Source: Patescibacteria group bacterium
GTDB lineage: Bacteria > Patescibacteriota > Minisyncoccia > JAHIHE01 > JAGLIN01
Direction: 5' to 3'
NCBI GenBank assembly: GCA_029210775.1
Contig: JARGGI010000005.1
Location: forward strand, 1-52,771
Length of the DNA: 52,771 nucleotides
Shown here: positions 32,887 to 47,259 of the stretch, piece after piece
Layout of the letters: each line of letters starts with the position of its first letter
Numbering within the stretch: position 1 is the first letter of the stretch
Notes under the pieces: generated by a model
The model's input: the letters and a program-made list of their open reading frames with translations, nothing else
What the model was told of the DNA's origin: nothing
The model's database searches: none
Translations under genes and position numbers: made by a program

Positions 32887-33064
32887 GTTTGAATTGAGAG
32901 GCGGACTTTTACTGTTCGTCTTTACGGACTGTGCTTTGAAACCTCTCGGTTCCAATACCTCCATCACGAAAAAACTCCCGTTTTCTCGACCCCTTTCCCA
33001 TTCAAATACTATCTGTGCTTATGTTACAAAATTTGTTGTGTTCTATTTTCAAACTAATTTTTTG

Positions 33065-33137
33065 TGCCGAGAGGCGGACTTGAACCGCCGACACAAGGAT
33101 TTTCAGTCCTTTGCTCTACCAACTGAGCTACCTCGGC
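33065..33137 (-). tRNA. tRNA-Phe(GAA)
   Basis: On the minus strand acceptor GCCGAGG / TCTCGGC (one G-U), discriminator A, anticodon loop CTGAAAA, T-loop TTCAAGT. CCA not encoded. Confidence 0.94.
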
Positions 33138-33200: not shown

Positions 33201-33274
33201 GTGGGCGCTGAGGGATTCGAACCCCCGACCCTCTCGGTGTAAATCCCGAGCACTCGGGACTCTAGCCAATTGAG
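33201..33274 (-). pseudogene. Truncated tRNA-Val copy
   Basis: Positions 33201-33243 are identical over 43 bp to the 3' half of the intact tRNA-Val (33539-33581). Then a 16-nt palindrome (TCCCGAG CA CTCGGGA, 33244-33259) replaces the anticodon stem, and CTCTAGCCAATTGAG matches the D-arm with one change. The 5' acceptor strand is missing: that place is taken by the 3' end of the GIY-YIG gene. It cannot fold into a tRNA. Confidence 0.88.
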
Positions 33275-33537
33275 TCGTTCTTATTAAGGTTCATTTCACA
33301 AAGTTTTCTATAAAATTTCTTGCTTTTTTGTTTTTTAAGAAACCTTTCTCTTCGCATTGCTTCTGATCTATTATCAAAGATTTCATAATAGGCTATCTCC
33401 CATTTTCCATCGTACTTTGAAGTATAATTTGAAAGCCCTAAATTATGTTCTGTAATTCTTTTAAATGAATTATTTGTTTGGCCTATATAAAATTTATCAT
33501 ATTTGGAATTATAGGCAATGTAAGTGTAAAAATTCAT
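33262..33537 (-). CDS. GIY-YIG endonuclease-domain protein lodged in tRNA-Val
   Basis: A 91-aa, single-domain protein (MNFYTYIAYNSKYDKFYIGQ: the GIY-YIG-like pair is YTYIAY...FYIGQT, with R/H/E residues at SFKRITEHN and YEIFDNRSEAMRRERFLKK). Its ATG shares the terminal A of an encoded CCA of the upstream tRNA-Val, and its last codons (DSIG, stop TAG) lie in the truncated tRNA-Val copy. Such small GIY-YIG proteins are probably homing-type nucleases. Position suggests a mobile cassette that rebuilds the tRNA on insertion. Confidence 0.85.
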   Translation of the reverse strand: MNFYTYIAYNSKYDKFYIGQTNNSFKRITEHNLGLSNYTSKYDGKWEIAYYEIFDNRSEAMRRERFLKKQKSKKFYRKLCEMNLNKNDSIG

Positions 33538-33539
33538 GG

Positions 33540-33613
33540 TGGGCGCTGAGGGATTCGAACCCCCGACCCTCTCGGTGTAAACGAGATGCTCTAGCCAACT
33601 GAGCTAAGCGCCC
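33540..33613 (-). tRNA. tRNA-Val(UAC)
   Basis: On the minus strand: GGGCGCT acceptor paired with AGCGCCC, discriminator A, anticodon loop TTTACAC in stem TCTCG/CGAGA, T-loop TTCGAAT. Unlike the other tRNAs in the window it is followed by CCA (33539-33537), whose A begins the GIY-YIG start codon. Confidence 0.95.
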
Positions 33614-33692
33614 AATAATAACTCATAATTTATAACTCATAACCAATAACGTTTGTCATAAGTTATGTGTTATAAGTTATCGGTTAATCATG

Positions 33693-33775
33693 TGCCGAGA
33701 GAGGGACTTGAACCCTCACGCCCTAATGGGCACAGGCCCTCAACCTGCCGCGTATACCAATTCCGCCACCTCGGC
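33693..33775 (-). tRNA. tRNA-Leu(GAG)
   Basis: On the minus strand: acceptor GCCGAGG / TCTCGGC, discriminator A, anticodon loop TTGAGGG, long variable arm, T-loop TTCAAGT. Confidence 0.94.
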
Positions 33776-44793: not shown

Positions 44794-47259
44794 ATGAGAA
44801 CAAAAAATAGAAATTTTATAGAAAAAATATTATCATTTTTAAAAGTAAAACAAATTACAAAGCAAAAACAAAAATTCTTGTCATTTTTGTTTTTAATAAT
44901 AATGTTTATAAGCATCCCATTGCATAATGTGAGTGCTAAATTTCCAAATATGAAATGGCCTGAGATGGATTTTTTAAGTTGGAATCCCATGGATGCTATA
45001 TTAAATAGCATATATGCAGTTGTTTATGTACTTTCTGCTATTGTCTTGTATATAAGTTATTATTTAGTGTGGTTCGGAGCTTGGCTTATTGATATTATGA
45101 TTTCTCCCAGTATTTATACTTCTGTTTTGGACATTTCTTCAGGTCCGCTTATGATTGGTTGGGGAGTTGTTCGGGATTTTTCTAATACATTTTTTGTTTT
45201 TATACTTCTTTTAATCGCTTTTTCAACAATTCTTCGTGTTCAAAAATATAGCGCGAAGAATTTCCTCCCAAAGTTTGTAATAGCTATGTTTTTAATAAAT
45301 TTTAGTGCTGTCATTGCAGCTGTTGTGATTGATTTTGGACAAGTTTTTATGTATGAAATAATTTCTTGGATGGGATCTTTTGCTGGAAATAATGGTGCAA
45401 TGGGCAATTTAACTTCTATTGTGGATAAAATGATTATTAATTTTCCAGCGATGGAGAAACCGGTTGGAGGTTATAGCTTGGAAAATATGGTTGGTGTAAC
45501 TTTCGCATTAGTTTTCACAATTATTTTGGGATTTGTTTATATTATGCTGGCAATTTTTCTTTTGATTCGGTTGGTTGTTCTTGCAATTTTGATTGTCCTT
45601 TCGCCCGTTGCTTTTATAGGTGTAATATTGCCAGGACTTAGTTCTCAAGTTAGTATGTGGTGGAAAAAATTGTTTGAATATTCTCTTTTTGGTCCAATTT
45701 TTGTATTTTTTGTATTTTTAGCAAGTTCAATGGCAAATGGACTAACATCATATCCAACTCCGCTGATCCCAGATGAGCTAAATGGTATAAAATATCTTAT
45801 TCCTTTTGTCGTTCCCTATTGTATTTCTATCGGAATGCTTTTAGCAGTGATTCCAGTAACTAAAACACTTGGCATGGCTGGTTCCGGTGCCATTATTGGA
45901 GGAACAACTGGACTTGGAAAGATTGCCATGGGAACTTATGCTGGTTATAAATTGGCAAAAGGGCTTGGAAAGAGGGCTGGAGGAATTGCGAAAGAAAGAA
46001 GTGAGAAGGCAAGAAAATCTGCTGATGTTTTGCAGACTGGGAAAGAATGGCTTAAGAAAAAATTGCCTGGGGGAAAGGTGAGAAATGTTAAGAATAAAGC
46101 AGAACAAGAAAAGAATAAAGAGGATAAAATGAAAAAAACAAGAGAGAAGTTGGGTCGTGAAGAAGATAGAGAATTGAGTGTAATGTTTGATATTACCAAA
46201 GGTGCAATATTAAAATTTGGACTGCCAGCAACTCCAGAAGAAAAGGCTGCAACCGCAGAAACTGCAATATTTAATGGAAAGGTATTAGACAATAAATCTG
46301 ATTTGCAAAAAATGATGCCAGCAATAGAGTCTGCTTTGAGTAAAAAAGAATTAAAAGATAATACACATAAAGATTTAAATTTTGCATTAATGACCAGTAA
46401 ATCGCAAAAAAGAATAAATAATGTAGATAATGAGGATAAAGATAAAATGGACAAAGATATAAAGGAACAGTTTGTAGATGGAATAAGTGACGATAAGAAA
46501 AGAGAACTTGTTGAAGAACAAATAATGAGAGAAACTGTTAGGGAAATGAAAGAAGATGGCAAAGATATAAGCAAATTAAATAATCTTGACGACAAGAGAG
46601 TTTCAAGAGTAATTAATGATACTTTGGATTCCGAAGATAAAAGATCATTTGAAAACCGATTAACCAAGAAACAACAAAAAGAATTTGCGACAGGATTGGC
46701 AGAAAATGGAAAAACAAAAGAAGAAATTGATGAACTTGAAGCTCTGGTAGATACAGGTTCTGATGAAGAAAAAGAAGCAGCAAAAGAAGAACTGAAAAAA
46801 GACGAGGATTTAAAAATTGATGCGGTTAATTTTGGTGCAGACTTAAAAGAAGTATTTGCAAAATCAGGCCCTGACATGGAGAAACATATCAAAAAGGCGT
46901 TTCCTAAATTTAATTCAGATGTCGTTGCAAAACTAAGTGATACTGATCTATTGAAATTTGGGGCTGAAGCAACTTCGTCTCAGGTTCATCACTTAAATAG
47001 AAATGGTAAAGAAGACAAACTTAAGGTGATTAGAGAGGCAAAAGATAATAAGATAAATACATTAAAATCTTTAACTCCAAATTATAATTATCTTGAGAGT
47101 AAGAGAAGGGCACTAGAAAAAGAAGAAGATCCAGACAAAAAAATCATAATCAAAAAAAATATAGAATATATTTTAAATCTGCCAGATGTTAAAAAGATTG
47201 TTAGTCTAGAAAAAGTAAAAGACAACATAGACAGTATATTAACAGGTGATAAATATTAG
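44794..47259 (+). CDS. VirB6/TrbL-like multi-pass membrane protein with long cytoplasmic tail
   Basis: An 821-aa protein. The N-terminal helix is followed by about seven more membrane segments up to about residue 375, in the TrbL/VirB6-type arrangement (LIRLVVLAILIVLSPVAFIGVILPGL ... WWKKLFEYSLFGPIFVFFVFL). A glycine-rich piece (GSGAIIGGTTGLGKIAMGTYAGYKLAKGLG) precedes an extremely charged, helical tail of about 430 residues. VirB6-type proteins form the inner-membrane channel. The identification rests on topology and neighbours (PrgI, VirB4, pilin). Confidence 0.75.
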   Translation: MRTKNRNFIEKILSFLKVKQITKQKQKFLSFLFLIIMFISIPLHNVSAKFPNMKWPEMDFLSWNPMDAILNSIYAVVYVLSAIVLYISYYLVWFGAWLIDIMISPSIYTSVLDISSGPLMIGWGVVRDFSNTFFVFILLLIAFSTILRVQKYSAKNFLPKFVIAMFLINFSAVIAAVVIDFGQVFMYEIISWMGSFAGNNGAMGNLTSIVDKMIINFPAMEKPVGGYSLENMVGVTFALVFTIILGFVYIMLAIFLLIRLVVLAILIVLSPVAFIGVILPGLSSQVSMWWKKLFEYSLFGPIFVFFVFLASSMANGLTSYPTPLIPDELNGIKYLIPFVVPYCISIGMLLAVIPVTKTLGMAGSGAIIGGTTGLGKIAMGTYAGYKLAKGLGKRAGGIAKERSEKARKSADVLQTGKEWLKKKLPGGKVRNVKNKAEQEKNKEDKMKKTREKLGREEDRELSVMFDITKGAILKFGLPATPEEKAATAETAIFNGKVLDNKSDLQKMMPAIESALSKKELKDNTHKDLNFALMTSKSQKRINNVDNEDKDKMDKDIKEQFVDGISDDKKRELVEEQIMRETVREMKEDGKDISKLNNLDDKRVSRVINDTLDSEDKRSFENRLTKKQQKEFATGLAENGKTKEEIDELEALVDTGSDEEKEAAKEELKKDEDLKIDAVNFGADLKEVFAKSGPDMEKHIKKAFPKFNSDVVAKLSDTDLLKFGAEATSSQVHHLNRNGKEDKLKVIREAKDNKINTLKSLTPNYNYLESKRRALEKEEDPDKKIIIKKNIEYILNLPDVKKIVSLEKVKDNIDSILTGDKY

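Follow-up and report, generated by a model that had tools for sequence, protein, structure and literature searches.

The window analyzed here is a 52,771-nucleotide stretch of a contig from a Patescibacteria group bacterium. On its minus strand, a complete tRNA-Val(UAC) gene is followed with no gap by a 91-codon open reading frame (ORF) encoding a GIY-YIG nuclease, and this is followed by a broken tRNA-Val (Table 1). The initial annotation had described this order, with the ATG of the ORF using the A of a CCA triplet, and ARAGORN, Rfam, and Pfam bear it out. A mechanical repeat search also recovered the exact 43-bp direct repeat that had been reported, with a spacing of 338 bp; judged from the sequence, chance is ruled out as the source of an exact repeat of this tRNA half. 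The broken copy had been recorded as a truncated tRNA-Val, which it is, but the hairpin at its break and its D-arm went unmentioned. It is thus more than a 3' fragment and consists of a diverged D-arm, a perfect hairpin, and the identical 3' half. The TAG stop codon of the ORF, correctly placed within the remnant by the initial annotation, falls in the D-loop. The 43-bp identity starts with the anticodon loop, and the hairpin ends precisely there. The ORF lies after the complete tRNA-Val and outside it, and Rfam intron matches in the window number zero, so the locus does not qualify as a group I intron. There is no integrase between the two tRNA-Val copies, where the space is taken up by the 91-amino-acid ORF alone.

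Table 1. Features of the tRNA-Val locus and its flanking anchors (positions in the window)
Feature	Position	Strand	Basis
tRNA-Leu(GAG), upstream syntenic anchor for locating empty sites	33692..33775	-	ARAGORN for the call
Intact tRNA-Val(UAC), rebuilt functional copy	33540..33613	-	ARAGORN; Rfam RF00005, 70.4 bits (limits as called by ARAGORN and Rfam, 33613-33537/33540)
CCA-like triplet, incidental; shares its A with the ATG of the ORF	33537..33539	-	Sequence
GIY-YIG nuclease ORF, 91 aa	33262..33537	-	Pfam PF01541, E=1.5e-14
D-arm (diverged) of broken tRNA-Val copy, containing the TAG stop of the ORF	33260..33276	-	Sequence and alignment
Perfect hairpin TCCCGAGTGCTCGGGA, 16 nt, where the 5' strand of the anticodon stem would be	33244..33259	-	Sequence and alignment
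3' half of tRNA-Val, displaced; 43 bp, same sequence as 33539-33581	33201..33243	-	Repeat search
tRNA-Phe(GAA), downstream syntenic anchor for locating empty sites	33064..33137	-	ARAGORN for the call

The tRNA-Leu(GAG)-tRNA-Val(UAC) pair is syntenic across the family, and the empty tRNA-Val sites for which the initial annotation had advised a search are present in syntenic relatives. In five of these (G016, G001, G006, G008, and G007), the site has no ORF, hairpin, or tRNA fragment; tRNA-Val is followed by a spacer and then by the next tRNA gene, which is tRNA-Phe in four of the genomes and tRNA-Gly in G016. The site is occupied in two genomes, that of the window (G000) and G004, in which the arrangement is identical and the protein is 73% identical at the amino acid level. 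This comparison of occupied and empty alleles is one between different species, not strains. The arrangement in the window is a genuine insertion. These empty sites, together with recurrence at many tRNA genes (see below), support the initial proposal that the insertion entered tRNA-Val, restored the gene, and displaced its old end.

The further proposal, that the element had brought the intact tRNA along, was based on this tRNA being the only one of seven in the window with an encoded CCA. It is literally the sole such tRNA, but the import drawn from this does not stand. The CCA is accidental, since it results from the joining of CAC and CATG; the tRNA-Val end reads CAC-TATG in the occupied G004 and CAC-A at the empty sites. 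The triplet is unconserved in this occupied relative, and we therefore rejected it as a sign of a foreign tRNA. The 3' half of tRNA-Val is identical in the empty relatives, which also argues against a foreign tRNA brought by the element.

In a tree of ribosomal protein L19, which is one short gene and has long outgroup branches, sisterhood of G000 and G004 is rejected (p-AU 0.0002). Because L19 is a single short marker, we grade independent gain or transfer at the two occupied sites as likely, and the pattern may alternatively reflect loss in their relatives. The distribution is patchy and departs from the species phylogeny, as seen in the L19 tree (one short marker) and in the ORF tree, which mixes phyla. 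The protein encoded at 44794-47259 was considered as a second species marker and dropped, since it is not a conserved housekeeping gene; in this protein the empty G006 (56%) is nearer to the window than the occupied G004 (42%). In two other genomes, G005 and G002 (L078:1705-2079 and L079:1702-1974), the same tRNA-Val site holds another type of insertion, which is non-coding, is roughly 110 bp long, and terminates in 18 bp copied from the 3' end of the tRNA. It is present twice in tandem in G005 and once in G002.

The Pfam match (Table 1) places the window protein in the GIY-YIG superfamily, and its catalytic residues Y17, G19, R27, H31, and E64 are all intact. These five residues and K68 are invariant in all 78 of the 78 aligned tRNA-linked relatives. 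Between the window ORF and that of G004, dN is 0.12 and dS is 0.67, which indicates purifying selection. We infer that the protein cuts or nicks tRNA-gene DNA. An NCBIfam search with the window ORF gave no match. The ORF also has no match in 50,697 phage records and no relative among viral contigs, and a viral origin of the cassette was dropped for this reason. To our knowledge, UPF0213/YhbQ-like and SLX1 GIY-YIG domains are not known as tRNA-gene mobile elements. These domains (PDB 1ywl, 1zg2, and 4xlg) are the nearest solved relatives of the single-domain fold, and the matches are weak (best E value, 1.6e-4).

We assembled 155 loci with related ORFs. A scan of 84,980 species supplied 39 of them, and genomes of the window's class supplied the remainder. 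An intact tRNA gene lies within 100 bp of 83 of the 155 ORFs, in every case on the same strand and never on the opposite one, where a rough estimate from tRNA density gives an expectation of about 1%; the other 72 have no tRNA within that distance. For remnants, we used a set of 88 loci with a nearest tRNA, in which more overlap was allowed and a remnant had to outscore 30 tRNAs of other isotypes. A partial copy of the same tRNA is found across the ORF in 62 of these 88 loci (including two duplicate records, L033=L004 and L132=L038), and in 26 no remnant exceeds the threshold. The recurrence at different tRNAs with a displaced fragment that the initial annotation had suggested looking for is therefore present. 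Loci with remnants involve 15 isotypes (Val, Ser, Met, Gly, Lys, Tyr, Cys, Gln, Leu, Ala, His, Thr, Pro, Asn, and Ile) and occur in the window's class, Moranbacteria, Gracilibacteria, Bacteroidota, Ignavibacteriota, Chlorobiota, and Nitrospirota. Isolate assemblies of Algoriphagus vanfongensis (L055) and Aureibaculum flavum (L060) also have members of the family next to tRNAs, which rules out an artifact of metagenome-assembled genomes.

On the ORF tree, the tRNA isotype label changes at least 37 times, and a single Gln-associated group of ORFs covers Bacteroidota, Ignavibacteriota, Gracilibacteria, and Moranbacteria. Among ORF pairs that are at least 70% identical, 16 share the same isotype versus 2 with different isotypes. 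As read from these comparisons, the isotype pattern is one of site fidelity with occasional switching. The window genome itself has two further relatives of the ORF. One adjoins tRNA-Ser(GGA) and has a remnant; the other, next to tRNA-Ser(GCU), is degraded and contains stops. Among the tRNA-less relatives checked, two, L014 (G030:C1) and L016 (G007:C7), lie inside stretches called by Rfam as 23S and 16S rRNA, respectively, so the wider ORF family is not restricted to tRNA and is also found in insertions of rRNA genes. An Rfam scan for other RNA targets near the tRNA-less relatives found only these rRNAs and a LOOT RNA (L032). At L122 (G215:C20), a tRNA-Asn-like gene at the ORF, which has no ARAGORN call, seems to have an interruption, perhaps a group I intron, close to the anticodon.

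The loci fall into two arrangements. In the 3p arrangement, which is that of the window, the order is tRNA, ORF, and a broken copy with the 3' half, or A-B-[ORF-a-hairpin]-B. The 5p arrangement is the mirror image, with a broken copy carrying the 5' half, then the ORF, and then the tRNA, or [A-hairpin-b-ORF]-A-B. Of the two isolate loci, L055 is a 3p and L060 a 5p cassette. The remnants are mostly 3' halves at 3p loci and 5' halves at 5p loci, and the 3p/5p label changes at least 16 times on the ORF tree. Most loci are broken in the anticodon arm; breaks in the D-loop or T-arm also occur. The ORF is tightly packed between the tRNA copies, and its start and stop codons are often borrowed from tRNA letters: the stop is inside the tRNA in 26 of 55 5p loci, and in 12 of those 26 it is 10 nt into the tRNA, where tRNA positions 8 to 10 are TAG (sequence viewed in L114). 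Displaced and rebuilt halves have 0 differences in most 3p loci, the exceptions being L009, L034, L038/L039, L064, and L125. This identity also speaks against import of a foreign half, as does the duplication at L050 and L055, which continues beyond the tRNA through a hairpin that is terminator-like in appearance and fits duplication of the target. Pieces bearing a hairpin flank both sides at L009, L022, L048, L066, L119, and L142.

The hairpin is a recurrent feature of the break. Of the 62 remnant loci, 37 have a GC hairpin with a stem of at least 6 bp within -2 to +4 nt of the repeat end, compared with 0.52 expected from the same-side distal flank, and in 25 the hairpin is exactly at the repeat end (expected, 0.07). 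Its position is downstream of the ORF in 3p loci and upstream in 5p loci, while the ORF is always on the strand of the tRNA. Since the hairpin changes sides relative to an ORF of constant orientation, what it marks is the break, and it cannot be a set terminus of the unit containing the ORF. Models of simple transposition fail on this point. The G004 locus has a 16-nt hairpin of its own, TCCCGAGGTCTCGGGA. Elsewhere in the window genome, the TCCCGAGTGCTCGGGA 16-mer is found in only two places, both of which are tRNA-Lys(CUU) tandem repeats. These are two tandem 80-bp units on contig C44 (42790-42885; L108 and L222), with the 5' half of tRNA-Lys(CUU) and the exact 16-nt TCCCGAGTGCTCGGGA, and they precede an intact tRNA-Lys with no ORF. 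This array is an ORF-less version of the window event. In two Moranbacteria with the same locus (L038 and L039), tRNA-Gln and the ORF are nearly identical and the outer tRNA halves differ coherently; unlike L039, L038 has an additional 20-bp hairpin cleanly inside the T-loop of the remnant. At L151 and L223 (G205:C35), at least four hairpin-bearing tRNA-like units of about 84 bp each run to the contig end and adjoin a GIY-YIG ORF.

One possible explanation is local amplification without homing, in which the GIY-YIG nuclease cuts its own tRNA neighborhood, recombination yields tandem [tRNA-ORF] units, and the broken tRNA is a decayed copy. Arrays with a repeated unit do occur, at L037, L040, L047, and L151 and in the tRNA-Lys array of the window genome, and such a process would leave duplicated halves that match exactly, as they do at most loci. 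There is also a precedent in phage T6: SegB of phages T4/T6 is a GIY-YIG homing endonuclease that cleaves inside tRNA genes and causes a unit of tRNA plus segB to be amplified in tandem (PMC13096335, citing Brok-Volchanskaya 2008). However, empty and occupied sites in one family and the spread of the ORF tree over many isotypes and phyla require movement as well, and simple tandem decay does not predict a consistent hairpin at the break. We therefore consider amplification alone unlikely.

A second explanation, which we regard as improbable to a somewhat greater degree, makes the short palindrome the true mobile element, inserting in tRNA loops with the nuclease ORF as a passenger or mobilizing helper. 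This would account for one 16-mer hairpin at both the tRNA-Val and the tRNA-Lys remnants of the window genome, for the same hairpins scattered away from tRNAs in G004 and G215, and for the T-loop hairpin present in L038 and absent in L039. Across 286 genomes of the window's class, TCCSS..SSGGA palindromes number 27,666 versus 8,064 for the reversed control pattern, a 3.4-fold excess. But this excess shows no association with nuclease presence within families over the same 286 genomes (13 of 35 families positive), and adjacency of ORF and tRNA is also seen where there is no detectable hairpin. Genome-wide mobilization of these palindromes by the nuclease was rejected on the same within-family result.

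In the classic picture of tRNA-integrating elements, attL and attR appear as a restored tRNA and a displaced half, and the window matches that picture. A relic of a larger island or phage, integrated site specifically at the tRNA and retaining the GIY-YIG gene as its sole surviving cargo, is nevertheless very improbable, given that the room between the tRNA copies suffices for a small ORF only, the same ORF family is the common content over many independent sites, both 5' and 3' halves are used, and hairpins lie at the inner junction. Least credible of all is a host-benefit system fixed in place, in which the ORF and hairpin-bearing tRNA-like RNAs have a decoy or regulatory role (against toxins that target tRNAs, for example): the constant co-orientation of ORF and tRNA, remnants that could still fold into a tRNA-like form, and purifying selection on the ORF agree with it, but patchy presence with empty sites, truncations that differ per locus, and degraded copies with stops (L003) do not.

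Based on the empty sites, the geometry of the duplicated halves, and the hairpins at the breaks, we think it probable that the locus is a homing-type cassette, free-standing, chromosomal, and about 300 bp long, that specializes in tRNA genes and was copied in with a duplicated tRNA half. The GIY-YIG nuclease would nick or cut the tRNA gene within a stem-loop (in the window, at the 5' border of the anticodon loop). Repair would then copy in the nuclease gene and duplicate the tRNA stretch from the break to the gene end, so that the host would never lose the tRNA. One complete tRNA would remain beside the ORF, and the other copy would be a broken half with a GC hairpin at the cut edge; insertion downstream (3p) would duplicate the 3' half and insertion upstream (5p) the 5' half. 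The insertion would spread horizontally, by gene conversion. Since the halves are usually identical, copying from the target is favored over import of a foreign half, and the paired changes at L034 and L039 leave room for possible exchange. In its behavior, the cassette appears to act like a homing element with restoration of the gene end, and its membership in that class is provisional.

SegB is one of the closest known systems. Like the window ORF, it is a free-standing GIY-YIG protein encoded in a tRNA cluster, and T4 segB is on the same strand as a tRNA gene 5 bp away. T4 SegB, however, has 221 amino acids compared with 91 for the window ORF, and it is phage borne, while the cassettes described here are chromosomal. 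The likeness is confined to the GIY-YIG motif, with no SegB-family homology beyond the catalytic motif: BLASTP aligns the window ORF with T4 SegB over 19 amino acids (E value, 0.035), and the family profile matches residues 3 to 27 only. No copy of the neighboring tRNA was found beside T4 segB.

The restoration of a gene end has its nearest parallel in the mobile ORFs (mORFs) of fungal mitochondria, where carboxy-terminal duplication is described for Allomyces atp6 and Glomus atp6, atp9, cox2, and nad3 (PMC3630166). There, an endonuclease ORF (GIY-YIG in atp9) sits at the end of an essential gene, a new end is supplied, and the old one is displaced downstream. The same signature, an end that is duplicated with one copy fused and the other displaced, is found in the window and in 62 of the 88 tRNA-adjacent loci. 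For the mORFs, the targets are mitochondrial protein genes and the supplied ends are divergent and deemed foreign (PMC3630166), whereas here the targets are bacterial tRNA genes, both the 5' and 3' sides are used, and the halves are mostly identical, with 43 of 43 positions identical in the window. Neither SegB nor the mORFs, as far as the latter are described in PMC3630166, have a hairpin-capped remnant. LAGLIDADG homing endonucleases occur in rRNA insertions of CPR bacteria (PMC11270868) and share with the present cassette the same bacterial radiation, an RNA-gene target, and a small homing-type nuclease. They differ in being inside intron-like rRNA insertions (PMC11270868); the GIY-YIG ORF here is beside a tRNA, without an intron, and the rebuilding is at the DNA level.

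No description of a tRNA half combined with a GIY-YIG ORF and a hairpin was found in the literature searched, which excluded most subscription journals and all bioRxiv preprints, and the cassette apparently belongs to an undescribed and widespread kind of tRNA-gene parasite. We raise tentatively, as a reading that is possible but still doubtful, that these loci form a new class of bacterial tRNA-gene parasites in which a GIY-YIG nuclease of one domain would break tRNA genes within their stem-loops and the repaired target would keep a long duplication with a GC hairpin at the intragenic break. This would occur both with copying in of the ORF and in trans, the latter producing the ORF-less arrays of hairpin-marked halves.

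The tRNA genes are classic landing sites of mobile DNA, and the familiar integrants rely on integrases. If the interpretation of the locus as a homing-type cassette is correct, a mobile unit of about 300 bp would be among the smallest with an enzyme of its own, and an essential RNA gene would be attacked and repaired in one act, on either side of the gene. The cassette would be a bacterial counterpart to SegB and the mitochondrial mobile ORFs, and the many natural sites are available for reading repair junctions. It would also offer a testable source for tRNA halves that lie displaced, or stand in tandem arrays, in bacterial genomes.
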